Shown one piece after another: positions 9,869 to 18,155 of a stretch of DNA of 38,485 nucleotides; positions within the stretch are counted from its first letter, which is position 1, and each line of letters begins with the position of its first letter. The notes below the pieces were generated by a model. It saw only the letters and a list, made by a program, of their open reading frames with translations. It was not told the DNA's origin and searched no databases. This DNA is from Planctomycetes bacterium UBA2386 (GTDB taxonomy: Bacteria; Planctomycetota; UBA1135; UBA2386): NCBI GenBank assembly GCA_002343845.1, contig DDSQ01000122.1, forward strand, positions 1 to 38,485. Direction: 5' to 3'. Made by a program: the position numbers and the translations under genes.

Positions 9869-9884
9869 CGCGCCGCGCGCGTCA
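9866..9884. terminator. Stop-codon hairpin between convergent genes
   Basis: TGACGCGC-CGC-GCGCGTCA is a perfect 8-bp stem. Its outer three pairs are the TGA stop of the gene ending at 9868 and the TGA stop of the opposite gene ending at 9882. Confidence 0.45.
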
Positions 9885-11765
9885 GCGCGCCGGCAGATCG
9901 CGGAAGAACGCGAGGATCGCCGCGCTGGCGTCGAACGGGAACGGCGTGTCGGCGAGCAACCTCGCCGATGACCCTGGCCACGCATGGCCGCCGCCGTCGA
10001 GCGTGATGACGCGCACGGGTTGCGGAGTGCCGGGCCGCGCGCCGACCGACCACGTCTCGGTGCGCACCTTGCCCTCGACGACCTTCTCGAACGCCGCGGT
10101 CAGTTCGTTGCGGGCGCAGTAGTACTCGACCGCCGCTGCGAGCGAAGTGTCGGTGCGATCCCCCGCACGGCCGATGGCCGCCCGCGGCCGGCCGCCTTCG
10201 ATGCGAACGTGGTCGTCGGCGCTGCCGTGCACGAGCAGCACGGCGATCGGGCGGTCGGCGGCCGTGGCCGTGAAGTTCATCGCGCCGGCGACGACGGCGA
10301 TGCCCGCGAACACGTCCGCTGCCTGCCGCGCGAGGCGATGGCACATCATGCCGCCGTTGCTGTGCCCGGCCGCGAACACGCGCGCGAGGTCGATCGGCGC
10401 GCGGCGCGCGACGTCGGCGACCACCGCCCGCAAGAAGCCGACGTCGTCGACGTCGTGCTCCTGCGCGTAGACCGCAATGCCGCCCGAGTTCCAGGTCAGC
10501 AACTTGCCGCGCAGCGGCCCGGTGCCGTCCGGGAACACGACCACGAAGCCGGCCCGCACGCCGGCCGCGGCCAGTCCCGTCGCTTCGCGCACCTGCTCGC
10601 CATTGCCGCCGCCGCCATGCAGCACGAGCAGCAGCGGCAACCCGGGGTGACCCTGCGGATGCGGCGGCACGTGCAGGTGGTAGCGCCGATCGCGACCACC
10701 GTGCTCCAGCGCGACCGTCGTCGTCGAGCCCGCGACGGCCGGCGAACGCACGGCATCGCGCACCACGGCCTGCACGCGCTCGAGCTTCGGCATCACGCGT
10801 CCGACGCGATCGCGCACCGCGAACACCCCGCCGATGCCGAGATCGACATCGAGCCATGGCGTGAAGCCGAAGGCCCCAGGATCGCTCGCCCGCGGCACGC
10901 CTTCGCCCGGGATCGGCACGATCCACGTGCCGAGTCCGTAGCGCACGCCATCGGCCTCGAAGCCGACGGCATCGACCGCGACGTTCTCGGGCACCTGATC
11001 GCGCAGCATCGCCGCGACGCTGGCTTCACTCAGCACACGGCGCTCGCCGACCCGGCCCTTCGCGAGCAGCATGCCGACGAAGGCCGCGTAGTCGTCGAGC
11101 GTCGACACCGCGCCGCCAGCGACCCACGGCAGCCTGGCCGTGCCGGCCTCGCCGCCGGGCGGCAGCAGCGTGCCGAACTTCGTCTTCGTCATGCCGAGCG
11201 GACCGGCGATGCGTTCGGCGAACAGTGTGTGCCAGTTCTTTCCGCTCACGCGCTCGGCGGCCACGGCCGCGACCTGGAACCCCACGCCGCCGTAGCGGAA
11301 CGAAGCGCCCGGCGGGCTGCGCAGTCCGACGTCGGCAGCCGCCGCGGCAAACGCCGCCATGTCGGCGTCGCGCAGGTCGCCGAGGCGCGCCGGCAGCCCC
11401 GTGGTGTTGGCCAGGCACTGGCGCAGGGTCATCCCCTGGCGATCGGGGCGATCGAACTCGGCCACGTAGCGACCGACCGGCAGGTCGAGGTCCAGTTCGC
11501 CGGCGTCGACCATCGCCAGCACCGTCGCGACCGCCAGCCACTTGCTCGCCGACGCGATCGGCAGCGCGGCATCCGCGGTGAGATTGCCGTGCAGCGACGT
11601 GTGCAGCCGTTCGCCGGCGCGCACCACGGCGAGACCAGCCCCGCGCAACCCGAGCTGCTGCACCGCCTCCGCGGTGGCGGCTCGCACTCCCGGCAGTTCC
11701 CCGGCCTGCGCGGCAAGCCCGGCGAGCCACGATGCGGCGAACAGCAGGTGCGGTAGCTCGTGCAT
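9882..11765 (-). CDS. Secreted fusion: beta-lactamase-fold serine hydrolase plus PHB-depolymerase-type esterase
   Basis: 627 residues from the ATG at 11763-11765, which gives a signal peptide (LLFAASWLAGLAAQAG). Residues 25-340 are a class C beta-lactamase/EstB-like domain with the SxxK motif SASK (S72, K75). The usual YxN is YGG (Y158), and a GIGG motif (310-313) follows. Residues 345-627 are a CE1/LpqC-type esterase: oxyanion loop LHGGGGNG (382-389), nucleophile GHSNGG (S469), an acid in HGSADDHV (near D518), and histidine in GGGHAWPG (H594). Both halves look catalytically intact apart from YGG. It probably cleaves an ester-bearing polymer or phenolic ester outside the cytoplasm. The fusion is unusual. 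The reading frame continues upstream to 11912, but that part overlaps the opposite lipoprotein gene. Confidence 0.88.
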   Translation of the reverse strand: MHELPHLLFAASWLAGLAAQAGELPGVRAATAEAVQQLGLRGAGLAVVRAGERLHTSLHGNLTADAALPIASASKWLAVATVLAMVDAGELDLDLPVGRYVAEFDRPDRQGMTLRQCLANTTGLPARLGDLRDADMAAFAAAAADVGLRSPPGASFRYGGVGFQVAAVAAERVSGKNWHTLFAERIAGPLGMTKTKFGTLLPPGGEAGTARLPWVAGGAVSTLDDYAAFVGMLLAKGRVGERRVLSEASVAAMLRDQVPENVAVDAVGFEADGVRYGLGTWIVPIPGEGVPRASDPGAFGFTPWLDVDLGIGGVFAVRDRVGRVMPKLERVQAVVRDAVRSPAVAGSTTTVALEHGGRDRRYHLHVPPHPQGHPGLPLLLVLHGGGGNGEQVREATGLAAAGVRAGFVVVFPDGTGPLRGKLLTWNSGGIAVYAQEHDVDDVGFLRAVVADVARRAPIDLARVFAAGHSNGGMMCHRLARQAADVFAGIAVVAGAMNFTATAADRPIAVLLVHGSADDHVRIEGGRPRAAIGRAGDRTDTSLAAAVEYYCARNELTAAFEKVVEGKVRTETWSVGARPGTPQPVRVITLDGGGHAWPGSSARLLADTPFPFDASAAILAFFRDLPAR

Positions 11766-11870
11766 GGTCCGTGTTATCGGACCGGCACGTCGCGGGGACG
11801 GTGCGGAAGGGTCCAACTTCGCACTGCTCGTCACGTTCCCGGGACGAACGCGCTGGGGGCGGCCTTTTCC

Positions 11871-11875
11871 GGAGG
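11871..11875 (+). promoter_or_regulatory. Shine-Dalgarno site GGAGG of the small lipoprotein
   Basis: GGAGG followed by a five-base spacer and ATG at 11881. It supports this very short gene as real. Confidence 0.6.
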
Positions 11876-11880
11876 CTGCC

Positions 11881-12030
11881 ATGAACCTGCGCAAGATCGC
11901 CCGCGTCGTCATCCTCGTCGTCCTCGCCGCCTGCTTCGCCGGCTGCCACTTCCACGGCGGCTACGACGACTGCGACGACGGGTGGGGCCTGAGCTGGAGC
12001 TACTGCCGCCCACACCGTCACTGCCGCTGA
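11881..12030 (+). CDS. Small His/Cys/Asp-rich lipoprotein
   Basis: 49 residues. GGAGG lies five bases before the ATG. The N-terminus is a lipoprotein signal (RKIARVVILVVLAACFAGC) with the lipobox CFAGC. The mature peptide is only about 30 residues and rich in His, Cys, Asp, Trp and Tyr: HFHGG, DDCDDGW and CRPHRHC. It could bind metal, but nothing more can be claimed. It stands alone, divergent from the hydrolase fusion and 42 bases before the DUF423 gene, with a 10-bp hairpin between. Confidence 0.7.
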   Translation: MNLRKIARVVILVVLAACFAGCHFHGGYDDCDDGWGLSWSYCRPHRHCR

Positions 12031-12049
12031 CGGAACTCGACCAGGTCCA

Positions 12050-12072
12050 CGCGCCACCGCTACGGTGGCGCG
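12050..12072. promoter_or_regulatory. 10-bp stem hairpin abutting the DUF423-selenoprotein-senB operon
   Basis: CGCGCCACCG-CTA-CGGTGGCGCG is a perfect dyad that ends on the base before the ATG at 12073. It also contains TACGGT (12061-12066), which sits six bases before the start and could be a -10 box. It could be an operator over a leaderless promoter or the terminator of the lipoprotein gene. Confidence 0.5.
12061..12066 (+). promoter_or_regulatory. Putative -10 box (TACGGT) of the selenium operon
   Basis: TACGGT followed by six bases and ATG. It fits the TANNNT pattern for leaderless genes in this window and lies inside the 12050-12072 dyad. Confidence 0.35.
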
Positions 12073-12438
12073 ATGCGTTCCACGACCTGCATCCGCGCCG
12101 GCGCGCTGCTCGCCGGCATCGCCGTGGCTCTCGGCGCCTTCGCCGCGCACGCCATGCGGGACCGCTACGAAGCGACCGCACTGCAGACGTTCGAGACAGC
12201 CGTGCGGTACCAGCTCGTGCACGCGCTGGCGATCGTGCTGTGCGGCGCGCTGCCGGCGACCACGCGTCGCGTCGGCGCTGCGGCAATCGCGTTCACGGTC
12301 GGCGTGATCCTGTTCTCGGGCTCGCTCTACGCGCTGGTGTGGTTCGACCTGCGAGCGCTGGGCATGGTGACGCCAGCGGGCGGCGTGGCGTTCCTGGTCG
12401 GCTGGGCGCTGCTCGCGACCCCATCGCGCGCAGCCTAG
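12073..12438 (+). CDS. DUF423 family membrane protein (YgdD/TMEM256-like)
   Basis: 121 residues with four predicted helices. The family hallmarks are present: an N-terminal GALLAGIAVALGAFAAHAM, then FETAVRYQLVHALAIVLCG, a third helix VGVILFSGSLYALV, and TPAGGVAFLVGWALLA at the end. DUF423 proteins are small inner-membrane proteins of unknown function. The stop is ten bases before the ATG of the UGA-containing Rdx gene, so all three genes to 13637 are probably one transcript. A link to selenium metabolism is not known for this family. It may simply be a neighbour. Confidence 0.9.
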   Translation: MRSTTCIRAGALLAGIAVALGAFAAHAMRDRYEATALQTFETAVRYQLVHALAIVLCGALPATTRRVGAAAIAFTVGVILFSGSLYALVWFDLRALGMVTPAGGVAFLVGWALLATPSRAA

Positions 12439-12441
12439 ACT
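12436..12441 (+). promoter_or_regulatory. Putative internal -10 box (TAGACT) before the selenoprotein gene
   Basis: TAGACT overlaps the last codon and TAG stop of the DUF423 gene and lies seven bases before the ATG at 12449. No Shine-Dalgarno site is present there. A leaderless transcript starting at the selenoprotein gene is possible. Confidence 0.35.
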
Positions 12442-12448
12442 CGCCCCC

Positions 12449-12679
12449 ATGCACATCACGATCGACTACTGCGTCGTTTGAAACTACCTGCCGAAGGCGG
12501 CCAGTCTGGCCGCCGCGATCCAGAAGGCGCACCCGCGGGCGAAGGTCGAGACCCGACCCGGGGGCCGCGGCGACTTCCTGGTCAAGGCCGACAGCAAGAC
12601 GCTGTGGGACAAGCGGCGGCGCGACGACGACCGCTTCCCCGACGAACGCGAGATCCTGAGCCAGCTCGGCAAGGGCTGA
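12449..12679 (+). CDS. SelT/SelW/SelH (Rdx) family selenoprotein with in-frame UGA (Sec11)
   Basis: 77 codons including the stop, with a TGA at 12479-12481 read as selenocysteine. The product starts MHITIDYCVV-U-NYLPKAASLAAAIQ. YCxxU/C-NYLPKAASLA is the Rdx signature and the UGA falls exactly on its redox position (C8-x-x-U11). Downstream, VETRPGGRGDFLV (about 33-45), TLWDKRR and RFPDEREILSQL match the family's remaining core, and the frame ends at a second TGA (12677-12679). Rdx proteins have a thioredoxin-like fold and act as thiol/selenol redox proteins. A perfect hairpin 14 bases after the UGA fits a bacterial SECIS element. The gene is flanked at ten bases on each side by DUF423 and senB. 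A cysteine-to-TGA sequencing error is the main alternative. Standard gene calling misses it. Confidence 0.9.
12496..12514 (+). promoter_or_regulatory. Putative bacterial SECIS element
   Basis: GGCGGCC-AGUCU-GGCCGCC: a perfect 7-bp stem and 5-base loop with G as the second loop base, inside the coding sequence. The loop begins 22 bases after the UGA. From memory, bacterial SECIS models require a G in the first two loop positions and roughly 16-37 bases from UGA to loop; both are met. SelB would bind here to insert selenocysteine. Confidence 0.75.
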
Positions 12680-12689
12680 CCGGGCGCCG

Positions 12690-13637
12690 ATGCGTGCCCT
12701 GATCGTGACGCCGGCGGCACGCGGCAGCCGCAGCGGCAACCGCGTCACCGCCCTGCGACTGGCGGCGCACCTGCGCTCGCGCGGCGCGACCGTGCGCGTC
12801 GCCGAGCGCTGGCAGGGGCAGCCGTGCGACCTGCTCGTCGCCGTGCACGCGAAGAAGTCCGCTGCAACCGCGCTCGACGCGGCGCGCGCCCTGCCGAAGC
12901 TGCGGCTCGTCGTGCTGCTGGCCGGCACCGACATCTACCCGCGGTTCCAACCCGATGCCGAGACGCTGGCCGTGCTGGATCGCGCCGACGCGCTCGTGGC
13001 GCTGCAACGCCGCGGCATCGAGTCGCTGCCCGCCGGAATGCGTGGCAAGGCGCGCACGATCGAGCAGTCCGCGACGGCGATCGCCGCCGTGCGAGCGCCC
13101 ACCTTCCGCGCCTGCGTGCTGGCGCACCTGCGGCCGATCAAGGATCCGCTGCTGGCGTTCGAAGCACTCGCGCACGTGCCGCGCGACCTGCCGATCGAAG
13201 TCTGGCTGGCCGGCAGGGCGCTGACTCCCGAACTCGCCGCCGCAGCGAACGCCGCCGCCGCGACGGATGCGCGCGCGCGCTGGCTCGGGGAACTGCCACG
13301 TCGGGCCGCCAAGACGATGCTCGCCTCGAGCCACGCCTGCATCGTCACGTCGGCTGCCGAGGGCGGCTCCAACGTCGTGTGCGAGGCGATCGCCGCCGGT
13401 ACGCCGGTCCTGTGCACCGCGATCCCCGGCAACCTCGGGCTGCTCGGCGACGACTGGCCGGCGACGTTCCCGGCCGGCGACGCGGCAGCACTCGGCGCCC
13501 TGCTGCGGCGGACGGCGTCGGACGCGACGTTCCGTTCGGAACTGCAGCGCCGCATCCACACGCTGCAGCCGATGGTCGCGCCGGAACGCGAACGCGCCCG
13601 CTGGTTCGAGCTGCTCGGCACGCTCGGCCTCGCCTGA
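12690..13637 (+). CDS. senB: Selenosugar synthase SenB-type glycosyltransferase (TIGR04348-like)
   Basis: 315 residues, GT-B fold. The N-terminus carries the family block VTPAARGSRSGNRVTALR (6-23), then AERWQGQPCDLLVAVHAKKSA (38-58) and LAGTDIY (78-83). These are characteristic of the TIGR04348 group to which SenB belongs. The C-terminal half has the donor-binding EGGSNVVCEA (E224 and E232, E-x7-E), then GTPVLCTAIPGNLGLLGDD and FPAGDAAALGALLRR. SenB joins selenophosphate to a UDP-sugar, forming a selenosugar used in selenoneine synthesis. SenA and SenC normally accompany it, but neither is in this window. Instead it lies ten bases after a UGA-containing Rdx selenoprotein. Family assignment is strong; the selenium role here is inferred from family and neighbour. 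No Shine-Dalgarno site is evident, so coupling to the preceding gene is likely. Confidence 0.88.
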   Translation: MRALIVTPAARGSRSGNRVTALRLAAHLRSRGATVRVAERWQGQPCDLLVAVHAKKSAATALDAARALPKLRLVVLLAGTDIYPRFQPDAETLAVLDRADALVALQRRGIESLPAGMRGKARTIEQSATAIAAVRAPTFRACVLAHLRPIKDPLLAFEALAHVPRDLPIEVWLAGRALTPELAAAANAAAATDARARWLGELPRRAAKTMLASSHACIVTSAAEGGSNVVCEAIAAGTPVLCTAIPGNLGLLGDDWPATFPAGDAAALGALLRRTASDATFRSELQRRIHTLQPMVAPERERARWFELLGTLGLA

Positions 13638-13749
13638 ACACGCCGCGCGGCGGCCGCCCCCCCGATGGCCGCACCCGGGTCGCCGCGCGAATCGACCCGA
13701 ACGCGTCGCCCCCGGTCGCGCACCTAGTCGATGCGGCTCGACCCGCCGC

Positions 13750-13754
13750 AGGAG
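13750..13754 (+). promoter_or_regulatory. Shine-Dalgarno site AGGAG deciding the start at 13764
   Basis: AGGAG nine bases before ATG 13764 favours this start over the upstream ATG at 13731, which has no such site. Confidence 0.45.
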
Positions 13755-13763
13755 ACCGCCCCC

Positions 13764-14027
13764 ATGCGTCCGCCCGTTCCTTCCCTCAGCGCCAGCGCGT
13801 ACCTGCGCCGCCTGCTGACCCCGCACGCCCTCGACTTCGGCGCCCGCCTGCTGCGCGCCGGCAACGGTGGCACCATCCACTTCCGCGAGTTCCTCGCCGT
13901 CGCCCGCGACTTCGTGCGCGAGCGGCCCGAGCAGAGCGCCGTCTACCTGGCGACGCTGGTCGCGCTCGACATGCACGTGCAGGACGGCGACGCGCGCGAC
14001 GTGCCGTCGCGGCCGTCGGTCAACTGA
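13764..14027 (+). CDS. Small hypothetical protein
   Basis: 87 residues from the ATG at 13764, chosen because AGGAG (13750-13754) lies nine bases upstream; the same frame also has an ATG at 13731. The protein is helical and basic at the N-terminus (SASAYLRRLLTPHALDFGARLLR) with a central GGTIHFREFLAVARDFVRERPEQ and a polar tail. No family is recognised. It is 126 bases after senB and may be transcribed separately. Its TGA is in a hairpin with the stop of the convergent DUF1501 gene. Confidence 0.6.
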   Translation: MRPPVPSLSASAYLRRLLTPHALDFGARLLRAGNGGTIHFREFLAVARDFVRERPEQSAVYLATLVALDMHVQDGDARDVPSRPSVN

Positions 14028-14043
14028 GCGACGATCGCGTCAG
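14024..14043. terminator. Stop-codon hairpin between convergent genes
   Basis: CTGAGCGA pairs with TCGC(G)TCAG around a CGA loop, with one bulged G. Both arms contain a TGA stop, of the genes ending at 14027 and 14040. Weak as a terminator because no T-run follows. Confidence 0.3.
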
Positions 14044-15485
14044 GCGATCAGCTCGCGCACGGGCTGCGCCCCTTCGGTGCCGACGAGCCGCTGCGCGAGT
14101 CCGGCGTGGAAGAACGACAGCCGGTTCGGGTCGAGCCCCATCTGCTGCAGGATCGTCGCGTGCAGATGCTTGACGTGCAGCGGCCGTTCGACGGCCTGGT
14201 AGCCGAGTTCGTCGGTGGCGCCGAGCGCCATGCCGCCGCGAATGCCTCCACCCGCGAGCCACATCGTGAACCCCGCCGAATCGTGGTCGCGGCCGGTACC
14301 TTCAGCGTACTCCGCCGTCGGCTGGCGGCCGAACTCACCGCCCCACACGACGATCGTCGACTCGAGCAATCCGCGCTGCTTCAGGTCCTGCAGCAACGCG
14401 GCGATCGGCCGATCGGTCGCACCGGCGTGCTTCTCGTGGTTGATCACGAGGTCGCCGTGCGCGTCCCAGTTGTAGTCGTTGTGGTTGCCACCCGAGTAGA
14501 TCTGGATGAACCGCACGCCGCGTTCGACCAGCCGGCGCGCCAGCAGGCACTTGCGCCCGAAGTCCTCGGTGCGCGGGTCGTCGAGGCCGTAGAGCGTGCG
14601 CGTCGCCGCGCTCTCGTTGGCGAGATCGATCGCTTCCGGCGCATGCGCCTGCATGCGGAACGCCAGCTCGTAGCTCTGGATGCGCGCCGCGAGGTTGCTG
14701 TCGTCGCTGCGCGGGGCCAGGTGCGCGTCGTTCTGTTCGCGCAGCGCGTCGAGCAGTCGCCGCTGCTCGCGCACCGTCATGCCGGCCGGGATCGCGAGAT
14801 CGAGGATCGGCTCGCCGTGCGGCCGCAGGACCGTGCCCTGGTAGACCGCGGGCATGAAGCCGCTGTTCCAGTTCTTCGCGCCCGAGATCGGGCCGCCCGA
14901 CGGATCGAGCATCACCACGAAGCCTGGCAGATCCTGGTTCTCGGTGCCGAGTCCGTAGTTGACCCACGAACCGAGGCACGGCGCGCCCGACAGGATGCGG
15001 CCGCTGTTCATCATCAGCATCGCCGAACCGTGCAGCGGCGACTCCGCGTACATGCTGTGCACGAACGCGAGGTCGTCGACGCAACGACCGACGTGCGGGA
15101 ACAGGTCGCTCACCCACCGCCCGCACTGGCCGTACTGCTTGAAGTTCCACTTCGGGCCGACGACGCGGCCCTGGTTCTTGCTGCCGCCGCGGCCCTTGGT
15201 CTTGATGTCGATCGTCTTGCCGTCGAGCGGGTAGAGCTTCGGCTTGTAGTCGAACGTGTCGACCTGGCTCGGGCCGCCGTACATGAACAGGAAGATGCAG
15301 GCGCGGGCCTTCGGCGCGTGGTGCGGCGGTTTGGGCGCGAGCGGACCTGCGGCCTTGCGGTCGTCGCCGAAGAAGCCGTCGCGCGACAACGCGTCGGTCA
15401 GCCCGAGCGCCGTGAACCCGGCACCTGCCTGCCACAGGAACTCGCGCCGCGTGCGACCGCAGAAGGTGTTGGTCGGGTCGTTCAT
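14040..15485 (-). CDS. DUF1501 family protein with Tat signal
   Basis: 481 residues. The N-terminus is a twin-arginine signal, TRREFLWQAGAGFTALGL (12-29). The body has the standard DUF1501 blocks: ARACIFLFMYGGPSQVDTFDYKP, RVVGPKWNFKQYGQCG, LVERGVRFIQIYSGGNHNDYNWDAHGDL, TIVVWGGEFGRQPTAE, GRDHDSAGFTMWLAGGG and HLHATILQQMGLD. The fold belongs to the alkaline phosphatase/sulfatase-like superfamily, but its reaction is unknown. It is nearly always encoded beside a DUF1549/DUF1553 protein in Planctomycetes, as here: only three bases separate its ATG from the upstream stop. The pair presumably works together outside the cytoplasm. Confidence 0.93.
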   Translation of the reverse strand: MNDPTNTFCGRTRREFLWQAGAGFTALGLTDALSRDGFFGDDRKAAGPLAPKPPHHAPKARACIFLFMYGGPSQVDTFDYKPKLYPLDGKTIDIKTKGRGGSKNQGRVVGPKWNFKQYGQCGRWVSDLFPHVGRCVDDLAFVHSMYAESPLHGSAMLMMNSGRILSGAPCLGSWVNYGLGTENQDLPGFVVMLDPSGGPISGAKNWNSGFMPAVYQGTVLRPHGEPILDLAIPAGMTVREQRRLLDALREQNDAHLAPRSDDSNLAARIQSYELAFRMQAHAPEAIDLANESAATRTLYGLDDPRTEDFGRKCLLARRLVERGVRFIQIYSGGNHNDYNWDAHGDLVINHEKHAGATDRPIAALLQDLKQRGLLESTIVVWGGEFGRQPTAEYAEGTGRDHDSAGFTMWLAGGGIRGGMALGATDELGYQAVERPLHVKHLHATILQQMGLDPNRLSFFHAGLAQRLVGTEGAQPVRELIA

Positions 15486-15488
15486 GGG

Positions 15489-18155
15489 TCAGTCGAGGAA
15501 CACGAACTCGTTGGCGTTCAGCAGCACGAGGCAGCAGCGCTGCAGCGCCTGCGCCTCGTCGCGGCCGTGGTCGGCCCGCAGCTCCCGCGCCAGCAGCACG
15601 AGCCGGTCGACATCGGCCGCGCGCGCCGGACGCTGCGTGACCAGTTCGAGGCCGCGGGTCAGCTGTGCGCGCAGTCCCGAGGTTTCGCGCAGCAGGCGCG
15701 CCGCGAACGCCGCAGCGTGCGCCTGCGCGAAGTCGCCGTTCAGCATCGTCAGCGCCTGCGTCGGCTGCACGGTCGCGAAGCGCACCGGGCAACTCGCGTC
15801 GGTGTCGGCGCGGTCGAACGACGCCAGCAGCGGCTCGGCGAGCGAACGCTTCACGTGCACGAAGAGGCTGCGGCGCGCGGCCTGCTCGGGCGTCGCTTCG
15901 CCCCAGGCTTCGTCGGGCCGAGACGACGTCGCCAGCACCTCGGGCGGCAGCGGCGGATAGACGCTCGGGCCGCCGCGTTCGAGGTTGAGCACGCCGGCCA
16001 TCGCCAGGACGGAGTCGCGCACCTCTTCGGCCGTCAGTCGCCGGCGATCGAAACGCCAGAACGCGTCGTTGAGCGGATCGGCAGCGAGAGCCTTGGGCTC
16101 CGCGTCGCTGCCCATGCGGAACGCCGCCGAGTGCACGATCAGACGGTGCATCGCCTTCAGGCTCTGGCCACGCGCGAGCACTTCGCAGGCCAGCCAGTCG
16201 AGCAACTCCGGATGCGTCGGCACGTCGCCGAGCCGGCCGAAGTCGTTGGTCGAACGCGACAGCCCGCGGCCGAAGTGGTGTTGCCAGAGGCGATTCGCCA
16301 GCACGCGCCACGTCAGCACGTGGTCCGGCCGCGTGATCCACTGCGCCAACGCCGTACGTCGACCGGCCGACTGCGGCGTCGCGCGCACTGGCCCGACGCC
16401 CTCGCCGCCGAGCATCGACGGAACGCCGGGTTCGACCTGCGGCCCCTTGCTGTGCACGTTGCCGCGCAACCGCACGAACGCGGCCGGCGGCTCGCTGCCG
16501 AACTCGGTCACCGCCAGCACTTCGGTGGTCTCGAGATCCGGGCGGCGCAGCGCGGCAAGCCGCGCGAACGCCGGCGACGCGGCGATCGCCTCGGCCGCCG
16601 CGAACCCGCCCGGCAGGTCGAAGGCGAGCGCCGCCACTTCCGGACCGCTCAGCGCGCGGTCATGGAACGCGAGTTCGTCGAGATCGCCGCGGAAGCCACG
16701 GCCGCCGGGCCGCATCCTGCCGACGACGAGATGCGGCGGCGCGGTCAGCGCCGCCTTCGAACCGGTGGCTTCCCCGACGAGCACGCCGTCGACGTACAAC
16801 GCGATGCGGCCGCTGTCCCGGTCGCGCGTGAACGCGACGTGATGCCACTGGCCGTCGTGGTGGCCGGGCCCCGACGCGAGGAACGTCTCCGGATCGCCGC
16901 TGCCCGCGACGATGCGGCCGTCGCTGTGCCAGGCGATGCCCCAATCGCGCACGATGCCCGACACTTCGCCATCGACGAGCCCGGTGCCGGTGAACCAACG
17001 GGTGTCGTTGCCATTGCCAGCACCGGGCCGGTCGCTGCGCACGAAGAACGACACCGTGAACGAGTCCTCGACCAGCCGCGGCAGCTCGGCGTGGTCGTCG
17101 CCGTCGAAGCGCAGCGCCTGCCCGCGATGGCCGGGCACCTGCACGATCTGGCCGCGCATCGCGCCGTGCCGTTCGCCGACCGCATCCAGCAGTTCGGTGG
17201 CGCTGCCGCGATCGCCCGGGTAGGCGGCCACGAGCTTCGGCGCGTTCGCAGCCTCGCCCGGCACCACCGCGGCCGCCGCCATGCGCAGCGCCGCCACCGC
17301 GTCGCTGCGCGCGGTCGTGTAGTCGGCGAGCGAACGCTCGAACTGCGCACGTGCGCCATCGACCGGCACGGTGCGCGCCGCCAGGTCGTAGGGCCGCACG
17401 TTCTCGAAGAACGCCAGGAAGGCGTGGTACTCCTTCTGCGAAAGCGGATCCTTCTTGTGGTCGTGGCAACGCGCGCAGCCCATCGAGATCGCGAGCAGCG
17501 AACGCGCCGTGGTGTCGGCGATGCTGTCGAGATCGTCGTAACGATGCTGCTCGGGATCGGTCGGTTCGTCGTCCCAGATGCCCAGGCGATAGAACCCCGT
17601 CGCGACGAGGTCGGCGACCCTGGGCTCCGGCTTCTCGTCACCGGCGAGCTGCGTCTGCACGAACTCGTGCCACGGCATGTCGGCGTTCAACGCGTCGACG
17701 ACCCAGTCGCGGTAGCGCCACACGAAGGGCTTCTTGCGGTCGCGTTCGTAGCCGTCGGTCTCGGCGTAGCGGACGAGGTCGAGCCAGTGCTGCGCCCACT
17801 TCACGCCGTACTGCGGCGAGGCGAGCAGCCGATCGACGACACGCTCGTAGGCGTCGGGCGCATCGTCGGCGACGAACGCGGCGATCTCCTCGGGCGTCGG
17901 CGGCAGACCCGTGAGGCCGTAGGTGACACGTCGCAGCAGAGCATGGCGGTCGGCGGCGGCGGCCGGCGTGAAGCCGCGCGCCTCGAGGCCCGCGAGCACG
18001 AACGCATCGATCGGGTTCTGCACCCAAGCGGCGTTCTGCACCGCGGGAACGGGCGGCCGCTGCAGCGGGCGGTAGGCCCACCAGGCATCTTCCTGGGCAA
18101 CGCCGGCCACCACGAAAGCGGAGACGGCGAAGGCGCTGCGGAATGCGTGAGGCAT
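15489..18155 (-). CDS. DUF1549-LamG-DUF1553 secreted cytochrome-like protein
   Basis: 888 residues. A signal peptide (AFAVSAFVVAGVAQE) is followed by DUF1549 from about 30 to 240, with [33 protein letters not shown] and the heme-type motif CARCH (C227, C230, H231). Residues of about 305-510 form a LamG/concanavalin-like domain (RFDGDDHAELPRL, WHHVAFTRDRDSGRIALYVDGVLVG, GDLDELAFHDRALS). DUF1553 follows at about 570-880: ALAQWITRPDHVLTWRVLANRLWQ, FGRGLSRSTNDFGRLGD, TAEEVRDSVLAMAG and LVLLNANEFVFLD. The LamG insertion suggests binding of a polysaccharide or glycoprotein. It shares an operon with the DUF1501 gene. Family function is undetermined. Confidence 0.93.
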   Translation of the reverse strand: MPHAFRSAFAVSAFVVAGVAQEDAWWAYRPLQRPPVPAVQNAAWVQNPIDAFVLAGLEARGFTPAAAADRHALLRRVTYGLTGLPPTPEEIAAFVADDAPDAYERVVDRLLASPQYGVKWAQHWLDLVRYAETDGYERDRKKPFVWRYRDWVVDALNADMPWHEFVQTQLAGDEKPEPRVADLVATGFYRLGIWDDEPTDPEQHRYDDLDSIADTTARSLLAISMGCARCHDHKKDPLSQKEYHAFLAFFENVRPYDLAARTVPVDGARAQFERSLADYTTARSDAVAALRMAAAAVVPGEAANAPKLVAAYPGDRGSATELLDAVGERHGAMRGQIVQVPGHRGQALRFDGDDHAELPRLVEDSFTVSFFVRSDRPGAGNGNDTRWFTGTGLVDGEVSGIVRDWGIAWHSDGRIVAGSGDPETFLASGPGHHDGQWHHVAFTRDRDSGRIALYVDGVLVGEATGSKAALTAPPHLVVGRMRPGGRGFRGDLDELAFHDRALSGPEVAALAFDLPGGFAAAEAIAASPAFARLAALRRPDLETTEVLAVTEFGSEPPAAFVRLRGNVHSKGPQVEPGVPSMLGGEGVGPVRATPQSAGRRTALAQWITRPDHVLTWRVLANRLWQHHFGRGLSRSTNDFGRLGDVPTHPELLDWLACEVLARGQSLKAMHRLIVHSAAFRMGSDAEPKALAADPLNDAFWRFDRRRLTAEEVRDSVLAMAGVLNLERGGPSVYPPLPPEVLATSSRPDEAWGEATPEQAARRSLFVHVKRSLAEPLLASFDRADTDASCPVRFATVQPTQALTMLNGDFAQAHAAAFAARLLRETSGLRAQLTRGLELVTQRPARAADVDRLVLLARELRADHGRDEAQALQRCCLVLLNANEFVFLD

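Follow-up and report, generated by a model that had tools for sequence, protein, structure and literature searches.

A UGA-containing Rdx gene next to senB in a single planctomycete clade: a probable two-locus selenoneine pathway adjoining an older selenoprotein gene

Introduction

As far as the available text of its descriptions goes, the dedicated route to selenoneine is encoded by a compact three-gene cluster (PMC9814287; PMC10702425), the sen cluster (senA, senB and senC) of Variovorax paradoxus. The functional residues of V. paradoxus SenB are given as N20, T23, R155, K158 and E231 in the accessible part of PMC10891094, and N20, R155 and E231 are named in that of PMC10702425 as well. Ovoselenol, a second selenometabolite (PMC13188914, available portion), is likewise a dedicated bacterial selenium metabolite and is compared here by name only. 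The other relevant group is that of the SelW-like (Rdx) bacterial selenoproteins (PMC1794560), which are marked by a CxxU motif, an Rdx domain and a UGA codon with a downstream hairpin.

The locus reported here lies on contig DDSQ01000122.1 (assembly GCA_002343845.1) of Planctomycetes bacterium UBA2386, in a stretch of 38,485 nucleotides that was analysed whole and is called the window. Its SenB shares family and functional residues with that of the V. paradoxus sen cluster (PMC9814287; PMC10702425; PMC10891094; available parts), and the SelD-type selenophosphate supply and the SenA of that cluster are matched in kin genomes. Unlike in V. paradoxus, the window SenB does not stand beside SenA or SenC and instead follows a DUF423-Rdx pair, the egtD and senA genes of its kin being found at another locus. 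The window Rdx is like the SelW-like selenoproteins in all three of their marks, and differs from them in adjoining SenB in one planctomycete clade, on evidence at the level of genes. Among open-access titles and abstract openings we found no SenB-Rdx pairing, no split sen pathway and no selenocysteine-containing SenB; the last is also not mentioned in the available portions of PMC9814287, PMC10891094, PMC10702425, PMC13188914 and PMC12013277.

Results

Gene layout of the window locus

Three genes read on the plus strand make up the locus (Rdx and SenB each start ten bases behind the gene before), and position 12073 is the ATG of the first:

12073..12438, plus strand: DUF423 membrane-protein-like gene (PF04241, 91.6 bits)
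12449..12679, plus strand: SelW-like Rdx gene with an in-frame UGA, predicted selenoprotein (PF10262, TIGR02174)
12479..12481, plus strand: UGA, codon 11, in a CVVU (CxxU) motif, predicted selenocysteine (frame reading)
12496..12514, plus strand: SECIS-like hairpin GGCGGCCA-GUC-UGGCCGCC, 14 bases past the UGA (fold, covariation)
12690..13637, plus strand: SenB, selenosugar synthase family, GT4-like glycosyltransferase (TIGR04348, functional residues)
13113..13115, plus strand: Cys142 codon TGC, in the column of the in-frame UGA of three Poribacteria SenB
13140..13142, plus strand: Lys151 codon AAG, corresponding to catalytic K158 of V. paradoxus SenB

Searched with our own profiles for SenA, for SelD/SenC and for the methyltransferase that kin loci carry, the 38,485 bases yielded nothing, so that the adjacent senA and senC/selD of a sen cluster are absent from the window locus; in kin, SenA is unlinked. 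An Rfam search of the window gave no match, tRNA genes were not found in it, and neither a sigma-70-like promoter nor a terminator was found at 11850-13800. Elsewhere in the window, on the minus strand, at 9882-11912 a beta-lactamase-family domain and an esterase-like domain share one frame, and at 14040-18155 lies a pair of DUF1501 and DUF1549/DUF1553 genes, a pairing that is common in planctomycetes.

The SenB frame opens at ATG 12690 and encodes 315 amino acids, which score 304.7 bits against TIGR04348, just above the cut-off of 300. All four solved chains with a match to it (E 1e-43 to 1e-44) belong to the SenB family. Alignment to one of them, chain 8jjn, whose numbering agrees with that of the papers (PMC10891094; PMC10702425), shows that all five functional residues are kept as N17, T20, R148, K151 and E224, and the five are invariant across 21 aligned proteins. 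The window SenB is likely to join selenium to a sugar.

A predicted Rdx selenoprotein

The Rdx gene has 76 codons between its ATG at 12449 and the stop at 12677-12679, and its product scores 60.3 bits against PF10262 (cut-off 22.6) and 45 bits against TIGR02174 (cut-off 34.2); with its CxxU motif and Rdx domain it falls among the SelW-like Rdx selenoproteins. All ten kin loci that have Rdx share the UGA in this CxxU motif, and TGA occurs within 141 of the 145 Rdx matches of the order, a count made over the whole match and not site by site. Folding places an eight-pair hairpin behind the UGA. The 60-base fold after the UGA is unremarkable on its own (z -1.2), and the evidence from pair counts was weak with 11 sequences (81 of 500 shuffles paired as well) and clear with 27, where 93.1% of pairs are standard against at most 61.1% for slid structures, 11 hairpin cells have changed on both sides, and 0 of 500 shuffles come up to the alignment in pairing, in double changes or in covariation score. 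The loop-side Ser codon is AGT in 10 of 11 Rdx loci (GGT, Gly, in the remaining one), a codon used for only 9 of 143 serines across the SenB genes of these loci. Each of the 11 kin genomes searched encodes SelD (with a TGA in every case), SelB and tRNA-Sec, and selenocysteine would be inserted into Rdx at the UGA. A second UGA-containing Rdx gene was seen in one kin genome (G003, C4:84864-88276), with an EgtB-like gene some 2 kb away.

Rdx-SenB pairing across genomes

More than 80 SenB loci matched in a genome collection, and among the best 80, which were examined, ten carry a UGA-containing Rdx gene within about 1 kb upstream of SenB (L001-L005, L007-L010 and L012; SenB 52-70% identical to that of the window), while the contig of L006 ends there. 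No Rdx pairing was seen in the 69 of these 80 loci that lie outside the clade; the fetched flanks of 49 of the 69 hold a SenA-like gene, and the neighbour at one of the non-clade loci, L066, is SenA at 501 bits. From a phylum sample of 294 genomes, 30 SenB loci were retrieved together with up to 1.5 kb of flank; only two of them, both of the clade, adjoin Rdx.

The order of the nearest kin was surveyed in 154 genomes, which like the others are assemblies of unknown completeness. SenB, counted at E 1e-40 or better, is present in 75 and Rdx in 122. Rdx and SenB are no more than 2 kb apart in 14 of the 15 genomes of a single clade, the contig ending at this point in the fifteenth (G006), and in none of the 49 remaining genomes in which both genes occur. 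Rdx was found in 63 of the 75 SenB genomes and in 59 of the 79 that have no SenB (Fisher p 0.17), and the two genes are distributed independently within the order. The pair itself is real and is conserved within a single clade; in the genomes surveyed it does not recur in unrelated lineages.

SenA and EgtD at a second locus

SenA was called at 370 bits, a threshold of our own choice below the curated cut-off of 420. Nine of the 11 kin genomes searched first have SenA (381-446 bits), in no case beside SenB: it lies on other contigs or, where the contig is shared, about 93 and 109 kb away. With G413 (410 bits) and G415 (424 bits), SenA is found in 11 of the 15 clade genomes, five of the 11 passing the curated cut-off (G009, G001, G005, G004 and G415). 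SenA of at least 370 bits was absent from the other four (G010, G011, G410 and G423), and EgtD was also not found in G010 and G011. All 11 clade proteins fall inside the SenA clade of a tree (support 99/97), where they stand apart from two EgtB-like groups and share a long stem (1.26), the program warning of long-branch attraction among the EgtB-like rows; two of the 11 were checked against the signature TIGR04373 and score 79.1 and 75.8 bits (cut-off 71).

EgtD lies directly upstream of SenA in all nine SenA-containing genomes searched for it, and was found in 9 of the 11 genomes searched overall. An unlinked SenA with EgtD beside it points to a selenoneine pathway divided between two loci, which is most likely the arrangement in these kin. 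Sulfate-activation genes lie near the EgtD-SenA pair in several of the nine kin genomes (L094-L102); one such neighbour was checked and is an adenylyl-sulfate kinase, with homologues at five more of these loci.

History of the tandem

The spacing between Rdx and SenB differs within the clade. A methyltransferase gene read from the opposite strand (71.4 bits against PF08241) lies between the two at L002, L004, L007, L008, L009, L010 and L208, the start of one stands beside SenB at the contig end in L006, and a remnant is left in L012; it is missing between Rdx and SenB in the window and at L001, L003, L005, L206, L207 and L209. Sister loci that differ in it are joined with support of 99-100 (L001/L002, L005/L009 and L012/L010), in a clade tree whose deep forks are weakly supported. 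Four genomes with no methyltransferase beside SenB have an orthologue elsewhere (G005, G410, G413 and G423); in G001 and G003 a search at E 1e-20 gave none.

Outside the clade, 14 Rdx loci had long flanks. DUF423 adjoins Rdx in four of them (G135, G405, G406 and G412), and two (G411 and G412) have the methyltransferase next to Rdx, none of these loci having SenB beside it; in G405 and G411 SenB is on a different contig from Rdx. DUF423 did not adjoin Rdx at any of 30 more loci, for which the flanks were short. The methyltransferase of kin loci, together with DUF423-Rdx loci that have no SenB, indicates that the tight Rdx-SenB tandem is most likely a derived state, and both observations weigh against an ancestral, conserved Rdx-SenB operon, which we reject. 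Open frames on the plus strand between Rdx and SenB were rejected as genes, being antisense to the methyltransferase. A role for the methyltransferase as a putative selenosugar Se-methylase was considered and left, given its lipoprotein-like start (judged by eye) and its location elsewhere in four genomes. The repeated origin of the tandem and the adjacency in all 14 testable genomes could reflect selection for co-expression.

SenB without SenA

Of the 75 genomes in the order that have SenB, 40 gave no SenA of at least 370 bits; an EgtB-like match of 234-335 bits is present in five of the 40 (G165, G269, G336, G410 and G423). SelD was recovered in 37 of the 40 (36 above cut-off), so incomplete assemblies are not an easy cause of the missing SenA. 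No SenA-like gene was found in the flanks fetched with SenB from 36 SenA-less genomes. Residues were counted in these SenB proteins with the window as a 37th row: the catalytic Lys (35 rows), Arg (34), Glu (36) and Asn (30) are kept wherever a letter is present, Thr stands in 29 of 30, and the His of the HLR motif varies. In a tree of 68 SenB proteins, from which 8 of 76 rows were left out as short, cut by an in-frame UGA, the presence or absence of SenA needs 13 changes, at least eight of them on well-supported branches, gains and losses being counted alike. Several SenA-less SenB proteins score below the SenB cut-off, and for these another acceptor is possible; a use of the selenosugar without SenA is likewise possible. 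Three SenA-less genomes (L249, L237 and L242) have a selA gene some 2.7 kb away from SenB, scoring 497 bits in L249.

In-frame UGA codons inside SenB

The 191 SenB loci reduce to 168 distinct frames, 165 of which enter the column count, three having no motif match. One interior stop is held by 12 of the 168 frames; it is TGA in every case and falls at one of two sites in 11. No interior TAG or TAA was found in the 168 end-trimmed frames, a TAG being present only in the wider SenB match of G250 and G380 before trimming (the G250 frame is unbroken). Eight of the TGA codons lie in planctomycetes of this order, at QSAPxU or a close variant, and three in Poribacteria, four residues before the His of HLR (FEVUV):

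L126/L160/L267, L155/L265 and L156/L266: SenB with in-frame TGA directly after QSA
L235 521-523, L241 4730-4732 and L245 4689-4691: SenB with QSA-site TGA
L148 2053-2055 (minus strand) and L263 190-192 (minus strand): SenB with QSA-site TGA
L011 1115-1117, L043 6433-6435 and L061 6421-6423: Poribacteria SenB with TGA

Five other Poribacteria SenB have Cys (three) or Ala (two) at the FEVUV column, where Cys stands in 84 of the 165 distinct loci. The window is one of these: its SenB has Cys142 (TGC) and no in-frame UGA, and is thus not itself a candidate selenoprotein. Chain 8jjn has Val in this column, so that the residue is unneeded for catalysis there. Going by the GT-B fold, the UGA site of SenB would be in the hinge between the domains, close to the selenophosphate pocket. 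The remaining TGA (L161/L268, in G165) stands alone elsewhere in the frame, in RWARULRSLG, and could represent either an error or a third such site.

Codon differences past the TGA are mostly synonymous in the three Poribacteria genes, whose proteins are 73-81% identical (64-69 synonymous versus 31-39 other differences over 160 codons). The planctomycete genes give 18-30 synonymous versus 19-48 other differences over 100 codons, and these less one-sided counts are as expected from more distant proteins. Of the eight planctomycete genomes seven were searched for SelD, and all seven have it with a TGA; a similar GC-rich hairpin follows the TGA in seven of the eight genes, by eye only. The hairpin behind the UGA of the Poribacteria genes was rejected as evidence for selenocysteine because their Cys-containing kin have it too. 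The QSA-site TGA genes of the eight planctomycetes likely encode selenocysteine-containing SenB, and the recurrent in-frame UGA suggests that SenB, the enzyme predicted to build the C-Se bond, can itself be a selenoprotein.

At five of the loci with a TGA-containing SenB and no SenA (L241, L245, L265, L266 and L267), SenB starts at the end of moaA, with a gap of -8 to 57 bases. Two of the five neighbours were checked as MoaA (about 355 bits), and the adjacency hints at a link with the molybdenum cofactor.

Discussion

We think it probable that the window SenB makes a selenosugar for selenoneine, with egtD and senA elsewhere in the genome as in most of its kin, and that Rdx is a neighbour by ancestry and not a dedicated enzyme of the pathway. 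SelD would make selenophosphate, SenB would join its selenium to a UDP-sugar, and the unlinked SenA would transfer the selenium to hercynine made by EgtD. DUF423-Rdx and the oppositely read methyltransferase would have formed the older block, next to which SenB became placed, and departure of the methyltransferase in several lineages would have left SenB close behind Rdx, where co-transcription is possible. Should Rdx act on the pathway after all, its likeliest job would be to reduce an oxidised selenium intermediate, as the selenoneine pathway ends with a reduction in the available account of PMC10702425.

The first-pass annotation of this DNA had read the locus as an Rdx selenoprotein gene next to senB, without SenA or SenC, that could define a different selenium metabolite or a carrier route. 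Its reading of the genes holds: the Rdx protein passes both profiles, the ten-base gap is as described above, the SenB call clears its family cut-off with the functional residues kept, and neither SenA nor SenC lies in the 38 kb. 'Without SenA' is right for the locus only, as 11 of 15 clade genomes encode it elsewhere. The survey of senB neighbourhoods that the annotation had called for gave a similarly divided answer, with the UGA-Rdx pairing kept in 14 of 15 clade genomes and seen at none of the other loci surveyed. The step from pairing to a separate route is not borne out, since Rdx is independent of SenB within the order, adjacency is restricted to the clade, DUF423-Rdx exists without SenB, and the tight tandem probably arose from departure of the methyltransferase. 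Rather than a new pathway, the pair most likely reflects a selenoneine pathway divided between loci, with a selenoprotein gene as its older neighbour.

Other readings give Rdx or SenB a different part. SenB might be redox-active through a hinge Cys or Sec, the selenosugar of this order serving as a SenA-free carrier or end product and the adjacent Rdx keeping enzyme or selenosugar reduced; we regard this as unlikely, though with some chance of being right. A dedicated Rdx-SenB route, in which Rdx would reduce or carry the SenB selenosugar or its diselenide without SenA, could draw on the adjacency in 14 of 15 clade genomes, on the repeated arrival at the tandem form, on the four clade genomes without SenA (two of them, G010 and G011, also without EgtD) and on the 40 genomes of the order, out of 75 with SenB, in which SenA was not detected while 37 of the 40 have SelD; but SenA is present in most of the clade (11 of 15), Rdx is independent of SenB and outside the clade never within 2 kb of it in the order, and DUF423-Rdx occurs without SenB, which together make this route quite doubtful. 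That the window SenB is a glycosyltransferase with a non-selenium acceptor is improbable: its score is barely above the cut-off (304.7 vs 300) and the model SenB discriminates only 10-20-fold against thiophosphate (PMC10702425, available text), yet all five published functional residues are retained, SelD is found in 11 of 11 kin genomes and SenA in 11 of 15 clade genomes. It is most improbable that the UGA, a standard stop codon in a gene whose selenocysteine is predicted from sequence only, is a true stop and Rdx broken in the window, as UGA recurs at the CxxU site in all ten kin Rdx loci and TGA in 141 of 145 matches of the order, the hairpin covaries, and all 11 kin genomes encode SelD, SelB and tRNA-Sec.

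On the preferred reading, of a selenoneine pathway whose enzymes are apparently split over two loci, searches keyed to the sen cluster would miss likely producers. SenA changes often on the SenB tree of the order while SelD mostly stays, which makes a role of the selenosugar besides selenoneine directly testable. SenB without SenA and SenB with an in-frame UGA form a wider pattern that deserves specialist attention.
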